Below, in pieces: positions 21,241-31,291 of a stretch of DNA of 64,000 nucleotides. Origin of the DNA: Chryseobacterium scophthalmum. Its GTDB lineage: Bacteria; Bacteroidota; Bacteroidia; Flavobacteriales; Weeksellaceae. Position 1 is the stretch's first letter; each line of letters begins with the position of its first letter. A program made the translations under genes and the position numbers. The stretch covers positions 310,001 to 374,000 of the forward strand of contig NZ_FSRQ01000001.1 in the NCBI RefSeq assembly GCF_900143185.1, read 5' to 3'. The notes under the pieces are model-generated. The model ran no database searches, had not been told where the DNA came from, and saw nothing but the letters and a program-made list of their open reading frames with translations.

Positions 21241-22035
21241 ATGAAAGAAAAATTATACATTATAAAAATCGGCGGTGCTTTAATTGATGATGAGGAATTA
21301 TTGAACGAATTTCTGGAGCAGTTTTCTGAAATTCAAGAAAAGAAAATTCTGGTTCATGGTGGCGGAAAATTAGCAACAACTTTAGCTGATAAATTAGGCG
21401 TTGAACAAAAAATGATTAACGGACGAAGAATCACGGATAAAGAAACGTTGGATATTGTAGCGATGGTTTATGCGGGAGGAATCAATAAAAATATTGTAGC
21501 AAAACTTCAGCATAAAAAATGCAAAGCAATGGGTTTTTCGGGAGCTGATGCCAATTTAATTAAAGCTAAAAAAAGAGAACATGCGGAAATAGATTTCGGA
21601 TTTGTGGGTGATATTACGGAGAAAAGTATTAATAAAAAATTGATTTCAAAATTGCTTAAACTGGAATTAGTTCCGGTATTTTCTGCAATTACTCACGATA
21701 AAAAAGGAAATCTGTTCAATACGAATGCAGATACTATCGCTTCAGTAATTGCGCAGGCTTTATCGATAAAATATGATGTTGAATTATTGTATTGTTTTGA
21801 TAAAGAAGGTGTTTTGGAAGATGTGAACAATTCTCAATCTGTTATAAAAAATATTTCTGAAGACGAATTTTCAACTTTAAAAGAAGAAGGGAAATTACAC
21901 AAAGGGATTCTTCCAAAGTTAGAAAATGCTCTTGGAGCAGTGAAAAATAAAGTTAATAAGGTATTCTTGATTAAGGAAACCGCACTAAAAAACCATATAG
22001 AAAATCATCATGCAGGAACTGAAATCTGTTTATAA
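21241..22035 (+). CDS. argB: Acetylglutamate kinase
   Basis: Phosphorylates N-acylglutamate. Amino-acid kinase fold, 264 residues: N-terminal IIKIGGALID, the glycine-rich VHGGGKLAT loop, and the later NTNADTIASVIAQAL motif. It lacks the N-terminal helix found in arginine-inhibited hexameric enzymes, which suggests a dimeric form not inhibited by arginine (inference from length). It lies 36 bases after argF' and overlaps argE by 26 bases. Confidence 0.94.
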   Translation: MKEKLYIIKIGGALIDDEELLNEFLEQFSEIQEKKILVHGGGKLATTLADKLGVEQKMINGRRITDKETLDIVAMVYAGGINKNIVAKLQHKKCKAMGFSGADANLIKAKKREHAEIDFGFVGDITEKSINKKLISKLLKLELVPVFSAITHDKKGNLFNTNADTIASVIAQALSIKYDVELLYCFDKEGVLEDVNNSQSVIKNISEDEFSTLKEEGKLHKGILPKLENALGAVKNKVNKVFLIKETALKNHIENHHAGTEICL

Positions 22036-23092
22036 TAAAGAAGAATTACTGAATAATGCAGTGGATTTGTTGAAAAAACTGATTGGAATTCCGTCATTCA
22101 GCAAAGATGAATTTAATACGTCTGTGGAAATTGAAAACTTTTTTAAAAAGAACAATATTCCGACAAAACGTTTTAAAAATAACATCTGGGCAGTGAATAA
22201 AAATTTTGATGTTTTCAAACCATCAATTTTGTTGAATACGCATCACGATACCGTAAAACCGAATAAAGCTTACACTTTAGACCCTTTTTTACCGATTGAA
22301 AAAGATGGAAAGTTATTCGGATTGGGAAGCAACGATGCGGGAGCTTCTCTAGTTTCGATGGCGCAGGTTTTTTTACATTTTTTTGATAAAGAAGATTTAA
22401 AATATAATTTAGTTATTGCTTTGACGGCAGAGGAGGAGATTTCAGGTTTTGACGGAATTGAAGCCTTATTTCCTCAGTTACCCAATGTCGAACTCGCCAT
22501 TGTAGGAGAGCCAACGCAGATGAATCTGGCGATTGCGGAAAAAGGACTTTTAGTCATTGACGGGGAAATGAAAGGCACTCCTTCTCACGCTGCTCATCCA
22601 AATGATGATAATTCGATTGTAAAATGCATGGAAGATTTGCAGCAAATTTTAAACTTCAAATTTCCAAAAGTTTCAGATTATTTAGGTGAAGTTAAAGTTA
22701 CACTTTCAGGAATTCATGCCGGAGTTCAGCATAATGTCGTTCCAGAATCGTGCGCTTTTACTTTGGATGTGAGAGTTACGGATGAATATTCGAATAAAGA
22801 AGCGTTTGAGATCATTCAATCGCAGATGAAATCGACTTTAACGGTAAGGTCTTTCAGGTTAAATTCATCAAAAATCGAAATGGAACATCCATTCGTACAG
22901 GCTGGTTTGGAAATCGGTAGGACAACATATGGCTCTCCAACTTCATCCGATCAGGCAATCATTCCTTGTACATCGGTAAAAATCGGTCCTGGTGACAGTA
23001 GGCGTTCTCACACAGCGGATGAATACATATATATAAATGAAATAAAAGAAGGGATTGATATTTATATTCAAATCCTTGAAAAAGTTTTATAA
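22010..23092 (+). CDS. argE: M20-family N-acetylornithine/N-acylcitrulline deacylase
   Basis: Zinc amidohydrolase (360 residues) removing the acyl group. Metal ligands are visible in NTHHDTVKP and GSNDAGASL, the catalytic glutamate in TAEEEISG, and the dimerisation-domain histidine in GTPSHAAHP. Because ArgF' acts on N-acylornithine, the true substrate is probably N-acylcitrulline. It starts inside argB (26-base overlap) and its stop overlaps the start of the second 210-base repeat. Confidence 0.93.
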   Translation: MQELKSVYNKEELLNNAVDLLKKLIGIPSFSKDEFNTSVEIENFFKKNNIPTKRFKNNIWAVNKNFDVFKPSILLNTHHDTVKPNKAYTLDPFLPIEKDGKLFGLGSNDAGASLVSMAQVFLHFFDKEDLKYNLVIALTAEEEISGFDGIEALFPQLPNVELAIVGEPTQMNLAIAEKGLLVIDGEMKGTPSHAAHPNDDNSIVKCMEDLQQILNFKFPKVSDYLGEVKVTLSGIHAGVQHNVVPESCAFTLDVRVTDEYSNKEAFEIIQSQMKSTLTVRSFRLNSSKIEMEHPFVQAGLEIGRTTYGSPTSSDQAIIPCTSVKIGPGDSRRSHTADEYIYINEIKEGIDIYIQILEKVL

Positions 23093-23299
23093 AACGACTT
23101 AGGAAAATGGAGCGTTAAGAAAAATAGTTTTATGAACGTTAAGAAAATCCAACTGTTTGAGTGCGAGACAAATATAGAATTGAAGAACCAATATTCAATT
23201 CGCACGAGTTTTGGGATTTTTAGAGAATAAAAATATTTTTTAGCGGAAGTTTCCAGTCTTGAATTTTTGTTTCTTTTGTTTCAAGACAAAAGAAAAATA
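23091..23299 (+). repeat. Dispersed 210-base repeat, copy 2
   Basis: Near-identical in order and length to 18605-18814, beginning AAAACGACTTAGGAAAATGG and ending with the same double hairpin GTCTTGAA/TTCAAGAC. Its first base pair overlaps the argE stop codon. The 368-base spacer between argE and argH consists of this repeat, the palindrome at 23306-23376 and a short CCAGCTTCC-rich stretch before argH. Confidence 0.85.
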
Positions 23300-23305
23300 G
23301 TAGGT

Positions 23306-23376
23306 TTTGTCATTCAGAAAGCGAAGTGAAAAATCTGCATTTTTAAAATAGATTCCTCCTTCGTCGGAATGACAAA
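23306..23376. repeat. TTTGTCATTC...GAATGACAAA palindromic element
   Basis: Imperfect palindrome with outer arms TTTGTCATTC and GAATGACAAA and inner GCGAAG/CTTCG pairing. It belongs to the same family as 20033-20109. Confidence 0.75.
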
Positions 23377-23460
23377 GCGAATAAAATAAAAAAGAAGATA
23401 AAGCGGTTGGTAGTGAACTTCCAGCACCCAGCTTCCATCTTCCAACAAAAAAGAAATTTT

Positions 23461-24765
23461 ATGAAAAAAATATGGCAAAAAGATGACAATGCCACCAATA
23501 TATTAGTCAACAAATTTACAGTCGGGAAAGATCTTGACTTTGATGAACGTCTGGCGAAATACGATGTTCAAGGTTCGATGGCGCATTGTAAAATGTTGGC
23601 AGAAGTGGGAATTATTTCCAGTGAAGAATCAAAGCAGATGTTATCTGTTTTGGGAGAGATTTTAGAAGATATCGAAAATGGAACTTTTGAAATCGATAAA
23701 ACTGCGGAAGACATTCACTCGCAGGTTGAATCTATCTTAATTGAAAAATTAGAAGATACAGGAAAGAAAATTCATACGGCGCGTTCTAGAAATGATCAGG
23801 TTTTATTAGATATTAAATTGTATTTGGTTGATGAAATTCGTGAAATTACAGCGTTGACAGACGAATTCTTTCAAATATTAATCAAACTGGCGGATCAGCA
23901 TAAAAATATTTTGCTTCCAGGTTATACGCATTTACAGATTGCGATGCCTTCATCGTTTGGATTATGGTTTGGAGCGTATGCAGAAGCGTTGTTAGATGAT
24001 ATCGAAATGCTATTTTCGGTTAAAAATATCATTAATAAAAATCCACTGGGTTCTGCTGCAGGATATGGTTCGTCTTTCCCGATTGACCGTGAGAGTACGA
24101 CTTATAATTTAGGTTTCCAGTCGATGAATTATAATTCGGTTTATGCTCAAATGACGCGTGGAAAGTCAGAGAAAATGTTGTCTATGGCAATGGCAAATTT
24201 GGCAGGAACGTTAGGTAAATTTTCTTATGATGTTTGTCTGTATTTAAGTCAGAATTTTGATTTTATCAGTTTTCCTAAAGAATTTACAACGGGAAGCAGC
24301 ATTATGCCTCACAAGAAAAATCCGGATATTTTTGAGCTGGTTCGTGCTCGTTGCAACAGAATTCAGTCGTTACCGAATGAGTTTATTTTGTTAACAACTA
24401 ATCTTCCATCAGGCTATCATCGAGATATGCAGCTGACGAAGGAAATTCTTTTCCCGGCAATCGATTCTTTGAAAGAATGTCTGGAGATTTTGGGTTATAC
24501 CTTACCGAATATTCAGGTGAAAGACGGAATTCTTGAAGACGAAAAGTATAAATATCTTTTCAGTGTAGAGAAAATTAATGAAGAAGTAAAAAATGGAAGT
24601 TCATTCCGTGATGCCTATGTAAAAGTAGGGCAGGAGATCGAAAACAATGAGTTCGATTTTGAAATAGGAAATCTAAATCATACCCATCAGGGAAGTATTG
24701 GGAATCTTTGTTTAGATAAGATAGAATATCAGTTTAATAAACTGAAAAACAAATTGTTGGGTTGA
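23461..24765 (+). CDS. argH: Argininosuccinate lyase
   Basis: Cleaves argininosuccinate to arginine and fumarate, the last step of the pathway. Fumarase/aspartase superfamily: signature GSSIMPHKKNPD, catalytic histidine in the GYTHLQIAMP motif, and EDIHSQVE early on. I start it at the ATG at 23461 (434 residues), since the family begins with MKxIWQK-like sequence; the longer upstream frame runs into the spacer. Confidence 0.95.
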   Translation: MKKIWQKDDNATNILVNKFTVGKDLDFDERLAKYDVQGSMAHCKMLAEVGIISSEESKQMLSVLGEILEDIENGTFEIDKTAEDIHSQVESILIEKLEDTGKKIHTARSRNDQVLLDIKLYLVDEIREITALTDEFFQILIKLADQHKNILLPGYTHLQIAMPSSFGLWFGAYAEALLDDIEMLFSVKNIINKNPLGSAAGYGSSFPIDRESTTYNLGFQSMNYNSVYAQMTRGKSEKMLSMAMANLAGTLGKFSYDVCLYLSQNFDFISFPKEFTTGSSIMPHKKNPDIFELVRARCNRIQSLPNEFILLTTNLPSGYHRDMQLTKEILFPAIDSLKECLEILGYTLPNIQVKDGILEDEKYKYLFSVEKINEEVKNGSSFRDAYVKVGQEIENNEFDFEIGNLNHTHQGSIGNLCLDKIEYQFNKLKNKLLG

Positions 24766-24791: not shown

Positions 24792-24874
24792 ATGCTTCGA
24801 CTCCGCTCAGCATAAAACCGCTAGAAAATGACTTTTAGTATTAGAAATGTCATGTTGAGCGAAGTCGGAAGCAT
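24792..24874. repeat. Palindrome between convergent argH and Lrp genes
   Basis: Arms ATGCTTCGACTCCGCTCAGCAT and its imperfect complement ending CGGAAGCAT, each about 22 bases, separated by about 38 bases. Sited between the 3' ends of two convergent genes, it probably works as a bidirectional terminator. Confidence 0.75.
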
Positions 24875-24895
24875 TTTCAAATAATTAAATATTTT

Positions 24896-25357
24896 TTAAC
24901 CGAGATCAATCTTAAACTTAGTAGATTTTTTAACTTCGTGAAGTACGATAGAACTATGATATTGTCCGATATTAGGAATATTTGAAATTACATTTACCGT
25001 AAAATTATTGTAAGAATTGATGTCTTTAGCGATAATTTTCAGCATATAATCATATTCGCCTGAAAGGCTGATGATTTCCTGAACTTCATCGTGTTGCATA
25101 ATGTTTTTCTCAAAAGTTTCAAGCACTTTTTTAGATTGTTCTTTCAAACGAACATTGCAATAAACAACAATATTTAAGCCCAGTTTTTCACGGTTCAAAA
25201 GACCTACGTATTTTTCGATGATTCCCTGTTTTTCCAGCTGTTTGATACGTTCATAAGTCGGAGTAAAGGTAAGACCAATCTTTTCTGAAATTTCTTTCAC
25301 AGAATAGGTAGAGTCTTCCTGAATGATGCTGAGAATCATTTTGTCTTTTAAATCCAT
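24896..25357 (-). CDS. Lrp/AsnC-family transcriptional regulator
   Basis: 153 residues from the ATG at 25357: N-terminal winged HTH (YSVKEISEKIGLTFTPTYERIKQLEKQGII) and C-terminal RAM/AsnC ligand-binding domain (NIVVYCNVRL...LSGEYDYMLKI). It is inserted between the arginine and pyrimidine genes and divergent from pyrB, about 125 bases from the pyr leader start. An amino-acid ligand and control of the neighbouring arg genes are plausible but unproven. Confidence 0.92.
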   Translation of the reverse strand: MDLKDKMILSIIQEDSTYSVKEISEKIGLTFTPTYERIKQLEKQGIIEKYVGLLNREKLGLNIVVYCNVRLKEQSKKVLETFEKNIMQHDEVQEIISLSGEYDYMLKIIAKDINSYNNFTVNVISNIPNIGQYHSSIVLHEVKKSTKFKIDLG

Positions 25358-25444
25358 AAAAATGATGTTGAGTTTTAACAAAAGTAGTATTTAAAAATGA
25401 AAATAAAGAGAGATTAAGATTTTTTAATTTTATAGGAATTTTGA

Positions 25445-25476
25445 TTTTGTCAGTTCGCCAAAATGTTATATCTTTG
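25445..25476 (+). promoter_or_regulatory. Promoter of the pyrB-carA-carB operon
   Basis: TTTTG at 25445-25449 and TATCTTTG at 25469-25476, separated by 19 bases. This matches the Bacteroidota housekeeping consensus (TTTG, about 19, TAnnTTTG). The same spacing is seen at the tRNA-Ser promoter. The transcription start should lie a few bases downstream, around 25480-25484. Confidence 0.75.
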
Positions 25477-25482
25477 CACCTA

Positions 25483-25554
25483 ATGAATAACACAGTATTT
25501 ATATCATTAGAATTACCGGGCGTAGACGCCCTTTACGATATTTATTTATTTTAA
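25483..25554 (+). CDS. Putative pyr leader peptide, 23 codons
   Basis: Short ORF between the pyr promoter and the attenuator. It begins MNNTVFISLELP and ends DIYLF. Its stop codon (25552-25554) overlaps the 5' arm of the terminator, so a ribosome reaching the end would block hairpin formation, as in E. coli pyrL. The last codons are very U-rich. Caveat: the predicted transcription start is at or just before the ATG, so translation would be leaderless, and the ORF could be fortuitous. Confidence 0.5.
   Translation: MNNTVFISLELPGVDALYDIYLF
25518..25531 (+). promoter_or_regulatory. Possible RNA polymerase pause hairpin in the pyr leader
   Basis: GGGCG-TAGA-CGCCC, a perfect 5-base stem with a 4-base loop, directly followed by a U-rich tract (TTTACGATATTTATTTATTTT). 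The order matches the pyrBI leader, where UTP shortage stalls polymerase in such a tract. Confidence 0.55.
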
Positions 25555-25582
25555 GCGAAGATATTTTCTTCGCTTTTTTTTT
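25553..25582 (+). terminator. Attenuator upstream of pyrB
   Basis: Perfect 9-base stem AAGCGAAGA/TCTTCGCTT with a 5-base loop and a run of nine Ts, 18 bases before the pyrB start. As an intrinsic terminator between the promoter and first structural gene, it implies conditional read-through. Confidence 0.85.
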
Positions 25583-25600
25583 GTAAAAAATTAAGATATT

Positions 25601-26491
25601 ATGTTTACGATTACAGAACTAAGTACCGAGAGAATCAACAGTATAGTAACAGAAGCACTGGCTTTTGCTAATGGAAAAACTGCCAAAATTGAAGGGGAAG
25701 TTTTTTGCTCAAATCTTTTCTTTGAAGACAGTACAAGAACGAAAACAAGTTTTGATATTGCCGAAAGAAAATTAGGTTTGCAGGTGGTTCCTTTTGATGC
25801 GGCAAACAGTTCGGTAAACAAAGGGGAAAGTCTTTATGATACGGTAAAAACGATTGAAAGTCTTGGTGTAAATCTGGTTGTAATCAGAGACAAGAAAGAC
25901 AGATATTTTGATGAATTAAAAAATATTACAATTCCCGTGATTAACGGAGGTGATGGAACTGGAAATCATCCATCTCAATGTATGTTAGACTTGATGACAA
26001 TCTATCAGGAATTTGGAAAATTTGAAGGCTTAAAAATAGGAATTGTAGGAGATGTAAAACACAGCCGAGTTGCTAATTCAAATGCAGAAGCATTAAGAAG
26101 GTTAGGCGCTAAAGTTTATTTCTCAGGACCAGAACAATGGTTTGATGAAGGAGCTTTAATTAATGGGACTTATTTATCTGTTGATGAATTAATTAAAGAA
26201 GTTGATGTTTTGATGTTATTGAGGATTCAACACGAAAGACATGATGCAAAAATGAGCTTCTCAGCGTCTGATTACCACAGAAAATATGGTTTGACGAAAG
26301 AAAGAGAAAAAGCGATGAAAAAAGAAGCGATTATCATGCATCCAGCTCCAATCAATAGAGGAGTAGAAATTGATACAGACTTGGTAGAATGCGAACGCTC
26401 AAGAATTTTCAAACAAATGCAAAACGGTGTTTTTGCGAGAATGGCAATTTTAAAAGAAGCTTTGGAAGGACAAGGATACACTTTTAAATAA
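25601..26491 (+). CDS. pyrB: Aspartate carbamoyltransferase catalytic subunit
   Basis: First committed step of pyrimidine synthesis: carbamoyl phosphate plus aspartate. Signature [20 protein letters not shown] with the phosphate-binding STRT, the flexible active-site loop with [10 protein letters not shown], and [11 protein letters not shown] near the end. At 296 residues it is a catalytic chain only; no regulatory pyrI follows, so control is more likely at the leader attenuator than by allostery. Confidence 0.96.
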
Positions 26492-26581
26492 GCCAATAGA
26501 ATTAAAGAAAAAATAAGAAGTAAAATAACAGAATGCGGAAGTCTAACTTCTAATTTCTAAAATCTAATATCTAATTTAAAA

Positions 26582-27655
26582 ATGAAGAAAAAGTTAATAC
26601 TGGAGTCCGGTGAAGTGTTTCATGGAGAAGGTTTCGGAGCAGAATTGGAAACTGCGGGAGAGGTGGTTTTCAATACCGGAATGACAGGGTACCAAGAACT
26701 GATCTCTGACCCGTCTTACTGCGGTCAGATTGTTTGTATGACCTATCCGCTTATCGGAAACTATGGGATTAATAGAGATGATTATGAGAGTATAGAGCCA
26801 GCTATCAAAGGGCTTATCGTAAAAGAACTTTGTGATTTGCCGTCAAATTTCCGTACTCAAATTACTTTAGATGAATTATTTAAAAAGAAAAAACTTTCAG
26901 GAATTTCAGGAATCGATACAAGAAGACTGACAAGAATTCTTCGTAACTCCGGAGTTGTGAAAGGAAAAATTGTAAACGCTGATGCTGACGAAAGTACAGT
27001 AGTTGCAGAGCTAAAAGAAACGACTTTCCCAACCAATCAGGTGGAGCAGGTCTCTACAAAAACACCTTATGCGAACCCAGGAAGAGGACTTAAAGTAGTA
27101 CTTGTGGATTTTGGTTCTAAATTAGGAATTATCAGAGAATTGTCTCAAAGAAATTGTGACATCACAGTAGTTTCACATGATACAACAGCAGAAGAAATTT
27201 TGTTGATGAATCCTGACGGAATTATGTTATCAAACGGTCCTGGAGATCCTGAAGATAATCAGGGAGCTTTAGAAATGATTCGTGGATTATTAGGAAAAGT
27301 CCCAATCTTCGGAATCTGTTTAGGGCACCAATTAATCGGTTTGGCTTGCGGAGCAAAAACTTTCAAGCTAAAATTCGGACACAGAGGAGGAAATCACCCG
27401 GTTTTGGATTTAGAGAAAAACAAAGTAGCAATTACTTCTCAAAATCACGGCTATGCAGTAGACCAGGAAAGTCTTAAAGAAACAGATTTAATTGAAACGC
27501 ACATCGCATTGAACGACAGAACAAACGAAGGTCTGAAACACAAAATTCACCCTTGTTTCTCAGTTCAGTATCACCCGGAAGCAAGTCCAGGTCCTGAAGA
27601 TGCAAACTACTTGTTTGATGATTTCATTGAATTAATGGAAAACTTCAAAAAGTAA
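26582..27655 (+). CDS. carA: Carbamoyl-phosphate synthase small subunit (glutamine amidotransferase)
   Basis: Supplies ammonia from glutamine to CarB. The N-terminal CarA domain (FGAELETAGEVVFNTGMTGYQE) is followed by a class I amidotransferase domain with the nucleophile cysteine in FGICLGHQL and the His-Glu pair in QYHPEASPGP. 357 residues. The gap to pyrB is 90 bases, with a simple repeat unit before the start. Confidence 0.96.
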   Translation: MKKKLILESGEVFHGEGFGAELETAGEVVFNTGMTGYQELISDPSYCGQIVCMTYPLIGNYGINRDDYESIEPAIKGLIVKELCDLPSNFRTQITLDELFKKKKLSGISGIDTRRLTRILRNSGVVKGKIVNADADESTVVAELKETTFPTNQVEQVSTKTPYANPGRGLKVVLVDFGSKLGIIRELSQRNCDITVVSHDTTAEEILLMNPDGIMLSNGPGDPEDNQGALEMIRGLLGKVPIFGICLGHQLIGLACGAKTFKLKFGHRGGNHPVLDLEKNKVAITSQNHGYAVDQESLKETDLIETHIALNDRTNEGLKHKIHPCFSVQYHPEASPGPEDANYLFDDFIELMENFKK

Positions 27656-27695
27656 TTTAGATTTCAGATATTAGACATCAGATAAAAGACTTTAC

Positions 27696-28049
27696 ATGCA
27701 TAATTTTGAGAAATTACTTTTCTGGCAGAAATCAATAGAACTTGCGAAAGAAGTTTATATTATTTGTGCAGATTTACCGAAAGATGAAAAATTTGGTTTG
27801 ATTTCTCAGATTAAAAGGTCGGTAATTTCAATTCCGTCAAATATTGCGGAAGGAGCAGGAAGAAATAATGACAGAGAATTTTATCATTTTCTTGGAATTG
27901 CAAATGCTTCTTCTTTTGAGCTACAGACACAATTAATTCTAACAAGAGAATTAAATTTATTAAATGCAGAAAAAGTTAACAGTTTAATATCAAATCTGAA
28001 CGAAATTCAAAGAATGATTTACTCATTTAAATCTAATCTAAAAAAGTAA
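27696..28049 (+). CDS. Four-helix-bundle protein (S23/23S rRNA intervening-sequence protein family)
   Basis: 117 residues, all helical: FEKLLFWQKSIELAKEVY, the highly conserved QIKRSVISIPSNIAEGAGR, FYHFLGIANASSFELQTQL. Members occur in rRNA intervening sequences and as stand-alone genes in many Bacteroidota, where they form pentamers of unknown function. Here it is inserted between carA and carB, flanked on both sides by the same short repeat unit, which looks like a late insertion into an otherwise conserved gene pair. Confidence 0.9.
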   Translation: MHNFEKLLFWQKSIELAKEVYIICADLPKDEKFGLISQIKRSVISIPSNIAEGAGRNNDREFYHFLGIANASSFELQTQLILTRELNLLNAEKVNSLISNLNEIQRMIYSFKSNLKK

Positions 28050-28061
28050 AACACAACACTG

Positions 28062-28098
28062 GAAGTCTAGAATCTGAAATCTGACATCTAGTATCTAA
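28062..28098 (+). repeat. Simple repeat unit before carB
   Basis: GAAGTCTAGAATCTGAAATC followed by more CATCTAGTATCTAA-type units. A related unit precedes carA (26538-26575), and an inverted one follows carA (about 27657-27685). Confidence 0.6.
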
Positions 28099-28108
28099 CA
28101 ACAAAAAA

Positions 28109-31100
28109 ATGGCAAAACGTACAGATATAAAAACAATTTTAGTAATCGGTTCAGGACCTATCATCATTGGTCAGGCTGCAGAATTTGATTACGCAGGAAC
28201 GCAGGCTTGTCTGTCTTTAAGAGAAGAAGGCTACAAGGTAATTTTGATTAACTCAAATCCTGCAACGATTATGACGGATGTTGAAATCGCGGATAAAGTA
28301 TATATCGAGCCGATTTCACTTCAGTTTGTAAGTCACATCATCAGAAAAGAGCGTCCGGATGCACTTTTACCAACTCTTGGTGGGCAAACAGGTTTGAACA
28401 TGGCGGTAGAATTGGAAAAATCAGGAATTCTTGAAGAATGTAAAGTTGAAGTTCTGGGAACTACGCTTTCAGCCATCAACAGAGCGGAAGACAGAGATTT
28501 GTTCCGTGAATTGATGAGAGAATTAAACGAACCGGTTCCTGAATCTGATATCGTAAATACGGTGGAAGGAGCAATTAATTTTGCTAACGAAATTGGTTAT
28601 CCGGTAATTGTTCGTCCTGCTTTCACAATGGGAGGAACAGGTGGTGGAATCGCTGCTACTGAAGCTGAATTGAAAGAAATTGCAGAATTAGGATTAAAAT
28701 ATAGTCCTGTTACACAGTGTCTTATCGAGAGATCAATTGCAGGTTTCAAAGAAATTGAATATGAAGTAATGCGTGATGCAAACGACAACGCGATTGTGGT
28801 TTGTAACATGGAAAATATAGATCCGGTTGGAGTTCACACAGGAGATTCAATCGTTGTGGCACCTTCTCAGACGCTTTCTGACAGAGAGTATCAGTTGTTG
28901 AGAAATGCTTCATTAAAAATCATCAGAGCTTTAGGAATTGAAGGTGGATGTAACGTACAGTTGGCTTTAGACCCACATTCATTCGATTATTATATCATCG
29001 AGGTTAACCCGAGAGTTTCGCGTTCATCAGCTTTAGCATCAAAAGCAACAGGTTATCCGATTGCGAAAATTGCTGCAAAAATCGCTGTAGGATTAACTTT
29101 AGATGAAATTATGAATCCGGTTACCGGAACGTCTTACGCTTGTTTTGAACCGGCTTTGGATTATGTAGTAACTAAATTCCCAAGATTCCCATTCGATAAA
29201 TTCGAAACAGCGGACAGAAGATTATCAACGCAGATGAAAGCAACAGGTGAAGTAATGGCAATCGGAAGAAATTTCGAGGAGTCTTTACAAAAAGCAATCC
29301 GTTCTTTGGAAACTGGAATCAAACATATCGGTTTAAAAACTAAGCAAGCTGCAGCTTTAACGGCAGAAGAAATCGAAAGAAGAATCAGAGTTTGTGATGA
29401 CGAAAGATTATTCATTATCGGGGATGCTTTAAGAAGAGGATACGACTGGGAACAAATCGTAGAATGGAGCAAAATTGATAAATTCTTCATCTGGAAAATC
29501 AAGAAATTAATTGATTTCGAAAAGGTGATCGCTGAAAATAAATTCAATAAAGACATTTTATTAGAAGCTAAAAAATTAGGTTTCGCAGATATAAATATTG
29601 CAGTTCTTTGGGATGTAAAAGAACGTGAAATCTTCAATTTCAGAAAAGAAAACGGAGTAATGCCGGTTTACAAAATGGTAGATACTTGCGCCGCTGAATT
29701 TGAATCTGAAACACCATATTTCTACGGAACTTACGAAGAGGAAAACGAAAGTGTAGCTTCAGACAAAGAAAAAATCATTGTTTTAGGTTCTGGACCAATC
29801 AGAATCGGACAAGGTGTTGAGTTTGATTACGCAACAGTTCACTCGGTTTGGGCGATCAAAGAAATGGGGTATGAAGCGATTATCATCAACAACAATCCTG
29901 AAACAGTTTCTACAGACTTCTCAATTTCAGATAAATTATACTTCGAGCCTTTAACGGAAGAAGATGTAATGAATATCATCGAATTAGAAAAACCAAAAGG
30001 TGTTGTGGTACAGTTTGGTGGACAAACAGCCATCAACTTAGCTGATAAATTAGCAGCTCACGGAGTTCAGATTTTAGGAACTTCTTTGGAAGATTTAGAT
30101 AGAGCTGAAAACAGAGATAAATTCGAAAAAGCTCTTCAGGAAATGGGAATTCCTCAACCTTTAGGAAAAACATCCACTTCAAAAGAAGAAGCAATAAAAA
30201 TTGCCAACGAAATCGGTTATCCGGTTTTGGTTCGTCCAAGTTACGTTTTGGGAGGTAGAGCAATGGAAATTGTTTATACCGAATCAGAATTAGCTCATTA
30301 TATGGAATTTGCGGTAGATGCAAGTCCTGAACACCCTGTCTTAGTTGACAGATATATGGTCGGAAAAGAAATTGAAGTTGATGCAATCTGCGACGGTGAA
30401 ACGGTAATTATTCCGGGAATTATGGAGCACATCGAAAGAGCAGGAGTTCATTCTGGAGACTCGATCGCGGTGTATCCTCCACAAAATATTTCACAAAGCG
30501 AAGTTGATACTTTGGTAGATTATACTCAAAGGTTAGCTAAAGGTTTGAAAGTAATTGGTTTAATGAATATTCAATACGTTCTTTTTGAAGGAAATGTATA
30601 TGTAATTGAAGTGAATCCACGTTCATCTAGAACGGTTCCTTTCTTATCTAAAATTACGGAAGTTCCGATGGCAAATCTTGCTACAAAAGCAATTTTAGGT
30701 CAAAAACTGACTGATTTAGGTTACAAAAACGGACTAGTTCCGAATAAAGAAGGTGTTTTCGTAAAAGTTCCTGTATTCTCTTTCTCAAAATTAACGAAAG
30801 TTGATATCTCTTTAGGCCCAGAAATGAAGTCTACAGGAGAAGTTATGGGGAAAGATACGACTTTAGAAAAAGCGCTTTATAAAGGATTGGTTGCAGCTGG
30901 AAGAAAAGTTCCGATGCATGGTTCAATCTTATTCACGGTAGCTGATAAACATAAGCAAGAAGCGGCAGATTTAGCTGTAAGATTCCATGAAGTTGGTTTC
31001 AGAATCTGGGCAACGGAAGGAACTGCAAAATTCTTCGGAGAACAAGGTATTCCTTGTAAAATTGGCTACAAAATAGGAGAGGAAAGCGTCAACTTAATCG

Positions 31101-31291
31101 ATTTGATTCAAAAAGGAAAAGTACAATACGTTGTAAACACCATGACGAAAGGAAAACAGTCTGAAAGAGACGGTTTCCAAATCAGAAGAATGAGTGTGGA
31201 AAACGGTGTTCCTTGTTTAACATCGATGGATACAGTTGAAGCAATATTGAAAGTTATCGAAAGCATGAGTTTCAAAATGGAAACGATGTAA
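28109..31291 (+). CDS. carB: Carbamoyl-phosphate synthase large subunit
   Basis: Makes carbamoyl phosphate from bicarbonate, ammonia and two ATP. The 1060-residue protein has two homologous ATP-grasp halves, each starting with a GSGPI(I/R)IGQ motif (residues about 12 and 560), an oligomerisation domain between them, and a C-terminal MGS-like allosteric domain (from about 930: [17 protein letters not shown]). The product serves both PyrB and ArgF', whose genes are in the same region. Confidence 0.97.

Follow-up and report, generated by a model that had tools for sequence, protein, structure and literature searches.

A probable translation-coupled attenuator in front of pyrB in Chryseobacterium scophthalmum and other Weeksellaceae

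Our comparative analyses suggest that pyrB of Chryseobacterium scophthalmum, and with it carA and carB, is probably controlled by a translation-coupled transcription attenuator working in the manner of E. coli pyrBI, where pausing of RNA polymerase (RNAP) at low UTP lets the leader ribosome prevent the terminator. The predicted promoter, leader ORF, central hairpin, U-rich tract and terminator are shown to be kept as one unit across the family Weeksellaceae while their sequences change. We consider pyrBI-type logic, already put forward in a preliminary description of this DNA, to be the best reading because these elements are kept across the family, there is little sign of an antiterminator, and PyrR does not appear over its cut-off. 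The conserved order of the elements, the absence of an antiterminator signal in 22 of 24 genera and the missing PyrR all agree with that proposal; what does not carry over from E. coli is the end of the ORF, which mostly stops at the terminator.

The pyrB locus and its leader

In the window, that is, the whole stretch of 64,000 nucleotides analysed, pyrB encodes the aspartate carbamoyltransferase catalytic subunit (25601..26491, + strand; NF002032, 356 bits versus a cut-off of 263). It is followed on the same strand by carA, for the carbamoyl-phosphate synthase small subunit (26582..27655; NF009475, 490 bits), probably co-transcribed with it, and by carB, for the large subunit (28109..31291; NF003671, 1621 bits). 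The nearest named relatives of this pyrB, C. balustinum first, show 99% identity over 296 residues. The interval between carA and carB holds a gene for a protein of the 23S rRNA-intervening-sequence type (27696-28049; PF05635, 117 aa). Arginine-biosynthesis-like genes (amino-acid kinase, M20 peptidase and argH) adjoin the pyrB-carA-carB group just on its 5' side, at 21241-24765, and carbamoyl phosphate feeds arginine too.

All elements of the leader lie on the + strand between pyrB and a divergent gene for an Lrp/AsnC-family regulator (24896-25381, − strand). The promoter originally described, TTTTG-N19-TATCTTTG, is in place, with a −33-like element (25445..25449) located 19 nt before a −7 element (25469..25476) of the Bacteroidota type TAnnTTTG, which is kept in relatives; a sigma-70 scan of 24800-28200 was uninformative, with 11 sites versus 12.9 expected. 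The leader ORF, MNNTVFISLELPGVDALYDIYLF*, comprises, as had been reported, 23 codons followed by TAA (25483..25554; ATG at 25483, TAA at 25552-25554), and is kept open in all genus representatives. Hairpin 2, the GGGCG-TAGA-CGCCC structure of the preliminary description (25518..25531, arms 25518-25522 and 25527-25531) and our candidate pause hairpin, ends 6 nt before ATATTT and is followed by the AU-only U-rich tract ATATTTATTTATTTT (25538..25552), marked by T enrichment before the terminator stem. The intrinsic terminator (25553..25582) indeed consists of a perfect 9-bp stem (25553-25561/25567-25575) with a 5-nt loop and nine Ts (25574-25582), 18 nt before the pyrB ATG at 25601, and the leader stop overlaps its 5' arm, sharing 2 nt with the stem. 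Folded as RNA, the leader reaches −27.9 kcal/mol, whereas 200 dinucleotide-shuffled versions average −11.9 (z −6.7; none of the 200 does as well). The terminator is the only such site on either strand of 24800-28200 and would be unremarkable alone, because shuffles average 2.0 terminator-like sites.

A further element, absent from the earlier account, is hairpin 1 (25480..25510, + strand), recognised in the fold and as an inverted repeat, in which CTAATGA (25480-25486) is perfectly complementary to TCATTAG (25504-25510) and encloses an inner 4-bp helix. Because these arms pair, the leader ATG lies within the hairpin, together with the predicted transcription start, which is base 25481 and precedes the ATG by 2 nt. 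This position results from applying to TATCTTTG the spacing of F. psychrophilum sigma-A promoters, in which TAnnTTTG is located at −12 to −5 (PMC9723704). The base at −2 from the ATG forms a U-A pair in some genera and a C-G pair in others; such a change on both sides suggests that this base is part of the transcript. The leader message had been thought to be leaderless; a start very near the ATG is retained, and the predicted start two bases before it, together with the pairing of base −2, makes the pyrB message probably almost, not strictly, leaderless. For comparison, leaderless messages represent 5.5% in F. psychrophilum (PMC9723704), and 5' UTRs shorter than 10 nt about 3.7% in B. thetaiotaomicron (PMC7366714).

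Conservation of the leader across the family

We detected a pyrB match, in some cases weak, in 117 of 148 Weeksellaceae genomes and fetched the loci of 88 of them in addition to that of the window. The comparison covered the 26 genera having a strong match and included 170 regions: the window, 80 named loci and 89 regions from the 88 further genomes. A region was parsed when a terminator (stem of at least 5, six Ts, at most 110 nt from pyrB) and a promoter separated from the ATG by 0 to 11 nt could be recognised; 161 regions from 24 genera were kept. As the named and further sets overlap, the safer count is 98 distinct leaders, 55 of them outside Chryseobacterium. Nine regions were dropped: L126 (g4), whose leader is visible by eye but is displaced beyond the 110-nt limit by an insertion between terminator and pyrB, and eight regions of g17, seven without a promoter match and one (L187) without a terminator. 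In 31 of the 148 genomes, including those of genera g10, g19, g28 and g29, pyrB gave no match at E 0.001, and a few others (g21) have weak matches only; these genomes may belong to pyrimidine auxotrophs or to users of another enzyme.

The comparison of leader ORF, hairpin and terminator across Chryseobacterium and its relatives, which had been proposed as the check on the initial reading, finds all three kept, and this comparison of 170 regions makes a chance origin of the leader unlikely. The parser found the terminator in 168 of these regions. The leader ATG lies 5-7 nt past TAnnTTTG in 161 of the 170 regions (24 of 26 genera), the gap being 6 nt in 154, 5 nt in six and 7 nt in one. Starting from this ATG, the ORF extends through the terminator stem or ends at most 12 nt short of it in 24/24 genera, versus 6.6 expected from dinucleotide shuffles (one leader per genus); the product of the chances would be 1.5e-14 if genera were independent, which, being related, they are not. 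The length from ATG to terminator equals 1 modulo 3 in 16 of the 24 (p 0.0009 if independent). In 87/98 distinct leaders, the stop codon begins 1-11 nt ahead of the stem (1 nt in 67); the ORFs of the other 11 enter the terminator or continue beyond it, as E. coli pyrL does. Because ORF placement is kept while the peptide varies between genera, except for the end encoded by the U tract and some FPLD-like starts, selection acts on the position of the ORF and apparently not on its product.

Hairpin 2 folds inside the ORF in 24/24 genus representatives, with a sequence that differs among genera, and 12-33 nt (median 20) separate its outermost 3' base from the terminator stem. Compared with shuffles, it reaches a combined Fisher p of 1.2e-9, which, like all p values combined here over the first leader of each genus, overstates independence because genera are related; singly, 7 of the 24 have p <0.05, and the signal is unclear in g6 (0.78), g16 (0.32) and g14 (0.29). 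The last 18 nt before the stem contain 51.6% T versus 29.2% in the rest of the ORF, with a higher value in 23 of 24 genera. An [A/G]T[A/T]TTT motif precedes the stem by 15 nt in 11 genera, by 12-16 nt in eight more and by 22 nt in g25; it was not found in the leaders of g2, g3, g15 and g18. By anatomy, the leaders carry the candidate pause hairpin and U-rich tract expected of pyrBI-type attenuation, several genera being weak when taken singly.

The end of the ORF codes for NIYFI- or DIYLF-like residues, and a stall of the leader ribosome on these codons is possible. This bears on an alternative to which we attribute a small probability, namely a translation-coupled attenuator sensing a signal other than UTP, either the supply of charged tRNA for the final Asn/Asp, Ile and Tyr/Phe codons or the overall rate of translation. 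Leader ORFs do often end in NNNIYFI-, NNNIFYI- or DIYLF-like residues, and in the representatives of g9, g13 and g24 no run is longer than NNN. However, the genera have no residue run in common, their longest runs consisting variously of N, K, F, T, D, L and other residues, the Ile, Tyr and Phe codons are accounted for by the AU-only tract, and the product of pyrB makes pyrimidines. Moreover, a classical amino-acid attenuator needs an antiterminator, and for the 24 genera together the complementarity between the 5' arm of the terminator and the leader stays at chance level (Fisher p 0.24; without signal in 22), although g24 (p 0.007) and g7 (p 0.023) do show such complementarity.

The fold itself was examined in an alignment of 32 leaders. 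Its three helices pair in 86.9% of cells, versus 28-51% when partners are slid by 1-3 columns and 81.7% when partners are dealt out. All letter-bearing cells of the nine terminator pairs do pair (100%), with five pairs changed on both sides, and the arms of hairpin 2 are conserved at 90% or more. Covariation is moderate: nine pairs changed on both sides versus 6.0 in shuffles (12/500 reach nine), and the number of further pair types (26 versus 24.3; 117/500) is not unusual. Invariant columns are restricted to AATG, ATA in the U tract, parts of the terminator with its T run and two lone Ts. Within Chryseobacterium, the leader is almost invariant in the 80 named loci, silent codon positions included, which shows constraint, of a kind that near-invariance alone leaves unspecified. 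Such invariance and the presence of three well-formed hairpins would suit a riboswitch or a protein-bound leader RNA in which the ORF is incidental. We nevertheless hold this improbable, as the genera share few conserved unpaired positions that could form a core, all 24 keep the ORF open, and PyrR is missing. The leader also lacks any Rfam family at the gathering threshold, at which a tRNA is the only match in the window, and a permissive search of 25440-25620 returned 16 matches, all below their cut-offs.

Hairpin 1 is more variable. In the 24 genus representatives, the AUG has a mean unpaired probability of 0.30 versus 0.54 in shuffles (Fisher p 1.9e-6), and the free energy of the same first 45 nt gives a far weaker signal (p 0.017). 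It is the weakest helix of the alignment (74% pairing), partly from a differing register in Chryseobacterium. The distance between its arms ranges from 4 nt (g12, g23, g24) to 17 nt (window). CTAATGA/TCATTAG was also considered as a DNA operator bound, for example, by the divergent Lrp-like regulator, and rejected because this spacing is too variable among genera, unlike that of a dimer operator. The Lrp/AsnC-family gene stands beside pyrB in the window and was found by tblastn in the fetched loci of g1, g32, g7 and g9, but this amounts to just 4 of 26 genera (with 0.5-2.5 kb of upstream sequence), and neither an operator nor a plain terminator fixing the level of expression would explain the ORF, so we judge these two possibilities very improbable.

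The regions of g17, whose pyrB is the most divergent in the Weeksellaceae (51-53%), deserve separate description. In seven of the eight (L149-L151, L186, L188-L190), a different terminator, AACATCTT..AAGATGTT-like, precedes pyrB, and one frame, delimited by its stop codons alone, stays open from 158-190 nt upstream until beyond the terminator; no promoter was recognised in these seven. They possibly represent a second form of the attenuator, by anatomy nearer to E. coli pyrL, and are left out of the counts.

PyrR and the distribution of the leader

In B. subtilis, PyrR exerts an attenuation-type control on pyr operons. Control of this type over the same pathway is what the Weeksellaceae leader would share with PyrR-dependent operons, and in other Flavobacteriales families pyrR indeed sits directly upstream of pyrB. 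By contrast, PyrR (NF003549) exceeds the cut-off in none of the 148 Weeksellaceae genomes, and their leader has no Rfam match at threshold. In a set of 196 Flavobacteriales genomes, NF003549 scored over the cut-off in 118, with none among the 29 Weeksellaceae. In a separate count, 118 of 167 genomes of other families have a pyrB match at E <1e-40, and 117 of these carry pyrR directly upstream of pyrB on the same strand, with a median of 149 nt between the matched stretches. Inspection by eye of 19 loci from other families revealed no ORF-hairpin-terminator leader before pyrR; in one locus (L171), a terminator is located close before pyrR.

The pyrB genes of Weeksellaceae form a separate lineage, with at most 47% identity to matches outside the family, among the matches listed. 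In a likely candidate scenario, an older pyrB was lost together with its control by PyrR, and the present pyrB either brought the attenuator along or acquired it in place. PyrR is below the cut-off elsewhere in the phylum too (it is over it in 175 of the 296 genomes of a phylum draw), and none of 12 pyrB upstream regions from outside the order shows such a leader by eye, the terminators found there seeming to follow an upstream gene. Because 11 of these 12 regions come without a strong PyrR match (G423 has one), loss of PyrR alone does not bring the attenuator.

A covariance model of the leader, R1, has one match in its own genome, at pyrB. Searched against 296 Flavobacteriales genomes, it gave 47 matches at E <=2.9e-4, one per genome and all in Weeksellaceae; 38 of them were checked against the position of pyrB and all lie just upstream of it. 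Among 26 weaker matches (E 0.004 to 0.1), at least 15 are in other families, and two Weeksellaceae genomes (G015 and G029) have no strong match.

Proposed mechanism, known systems and significance

According to the pyrBI-type reading, transcription would start about 2 nt before the ATG, and a ribosome would load on the end of the nascent RNA. At hairpin 2 and the AU-only tract, RNAP would pause longer when UTP is scarce, allowing the ribosome to close up; while reading up to, or terminating at, the stop that abuts the terminator, it would mask the 5' arm, and RNAP would proceed into pyrB. With plentiful UTP, RNAP would outrun the ribosome and the terminator would form. A ribosome reportedly covers up to 12 nt after the stop codon (PMC4833913), so that, as the arm begins at the stop, a ribosome positioned there would cover most of it. 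In E. coli, preventing the terminator requires coupling across pyrL (PMC5021804).

More tentatively, hairpin 1 may act as a kinetic gate that gives this almost leaderless message, from a family lacking PyrR, a second and earlier sensor; we find this possible, though doubtful. Since its far arm is made some 10-30 nt later, a ribosome could load only before that arm is released from RNAP; slow transcription at low UTP would keep this loading window open and fast transcription would shut it. RNAP speed would then set both the presence of the leader ribosome and its ability to keep pace. Such a timing gate would be an addition to the attenuator and not its core, because hairpin 1 is clear in 13 of 24 genera (AUG unpaired probability <0.2) and clearly absent in six (>=0.60; g2, g3, g16, g22, g25, g33), five others having values of 0.39-0.54.

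Like E. coli pyrBI, the Weeksellaceae leader places an ORF, a hairpin, a U-rich tract and an intrinsic terminator in the same order before pyrB, with the ORF extending into the terminator region. The details differ in many respects. E. coli pyrL has 44 codons versus 23 in the window, and its stop is located 3 nt before pyrB, whereas the Weeksellaceae ORF stops at the terminator in most of the distinct leaders; reading through to just before pyrB is a trait of pyrL that is inessential to the mechanism. Its ATG lies 25 nt past TATAAT, compared with 6 nt past the −7 element in the window, and its hairpin ends 10 nt before a T5 tract, compared with 6 nt before ATATTT. Unlike E. coli pyrBI, part of the Weeksellaceae have a hairpin at the start codon, the start in the window is devoid of the T run that reiterative transcription would need, and the gene after pyrB is carA instead of pyrI. 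The leader peptide looks unrelated to that of pyrL. We do not claim descent from pyrL, and the pyrBI logic was probably arrived at separately.

Leader-peptide attenuators have been reported in another flavobacterium, F. psychrophilum, before amino-acid biosynthesis operons (PMC9723704); they share with our leader the combination of leader peptide and attenuation and differ in the operons concerned, with no pyrB case seen in the part of that source consulted. Short ORFs in long 5' UTRs are known from B. thetaiotaomicron (PMC7366714), and a term search of the main text of a survey of premature terminators (PMC2965389) returned neither Bacteroidetes nor Flavobacteri-. In the literature searched, from which most subscription papers fell outside, we recognised no pyrB attenuator in Bacteroidota.

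If the proposed mechanism is true, close ribosome-RNAP coupling would be a regulatory device in flavobacteria, whose messages are without Shine-Dalgarno sequences (PMC9723704), and the leader would offer a compact reporter for testing this coupling. It would also provide a natural example of an almost leaderless regulatory ORF with its start codon inside a 5'-terminal hairpin. Finally, with PyrR missing in this family and pyrR found beside pyrB in neighbouring ones, it would probably represent an independent origin of the logic of E. coli pyrBI.
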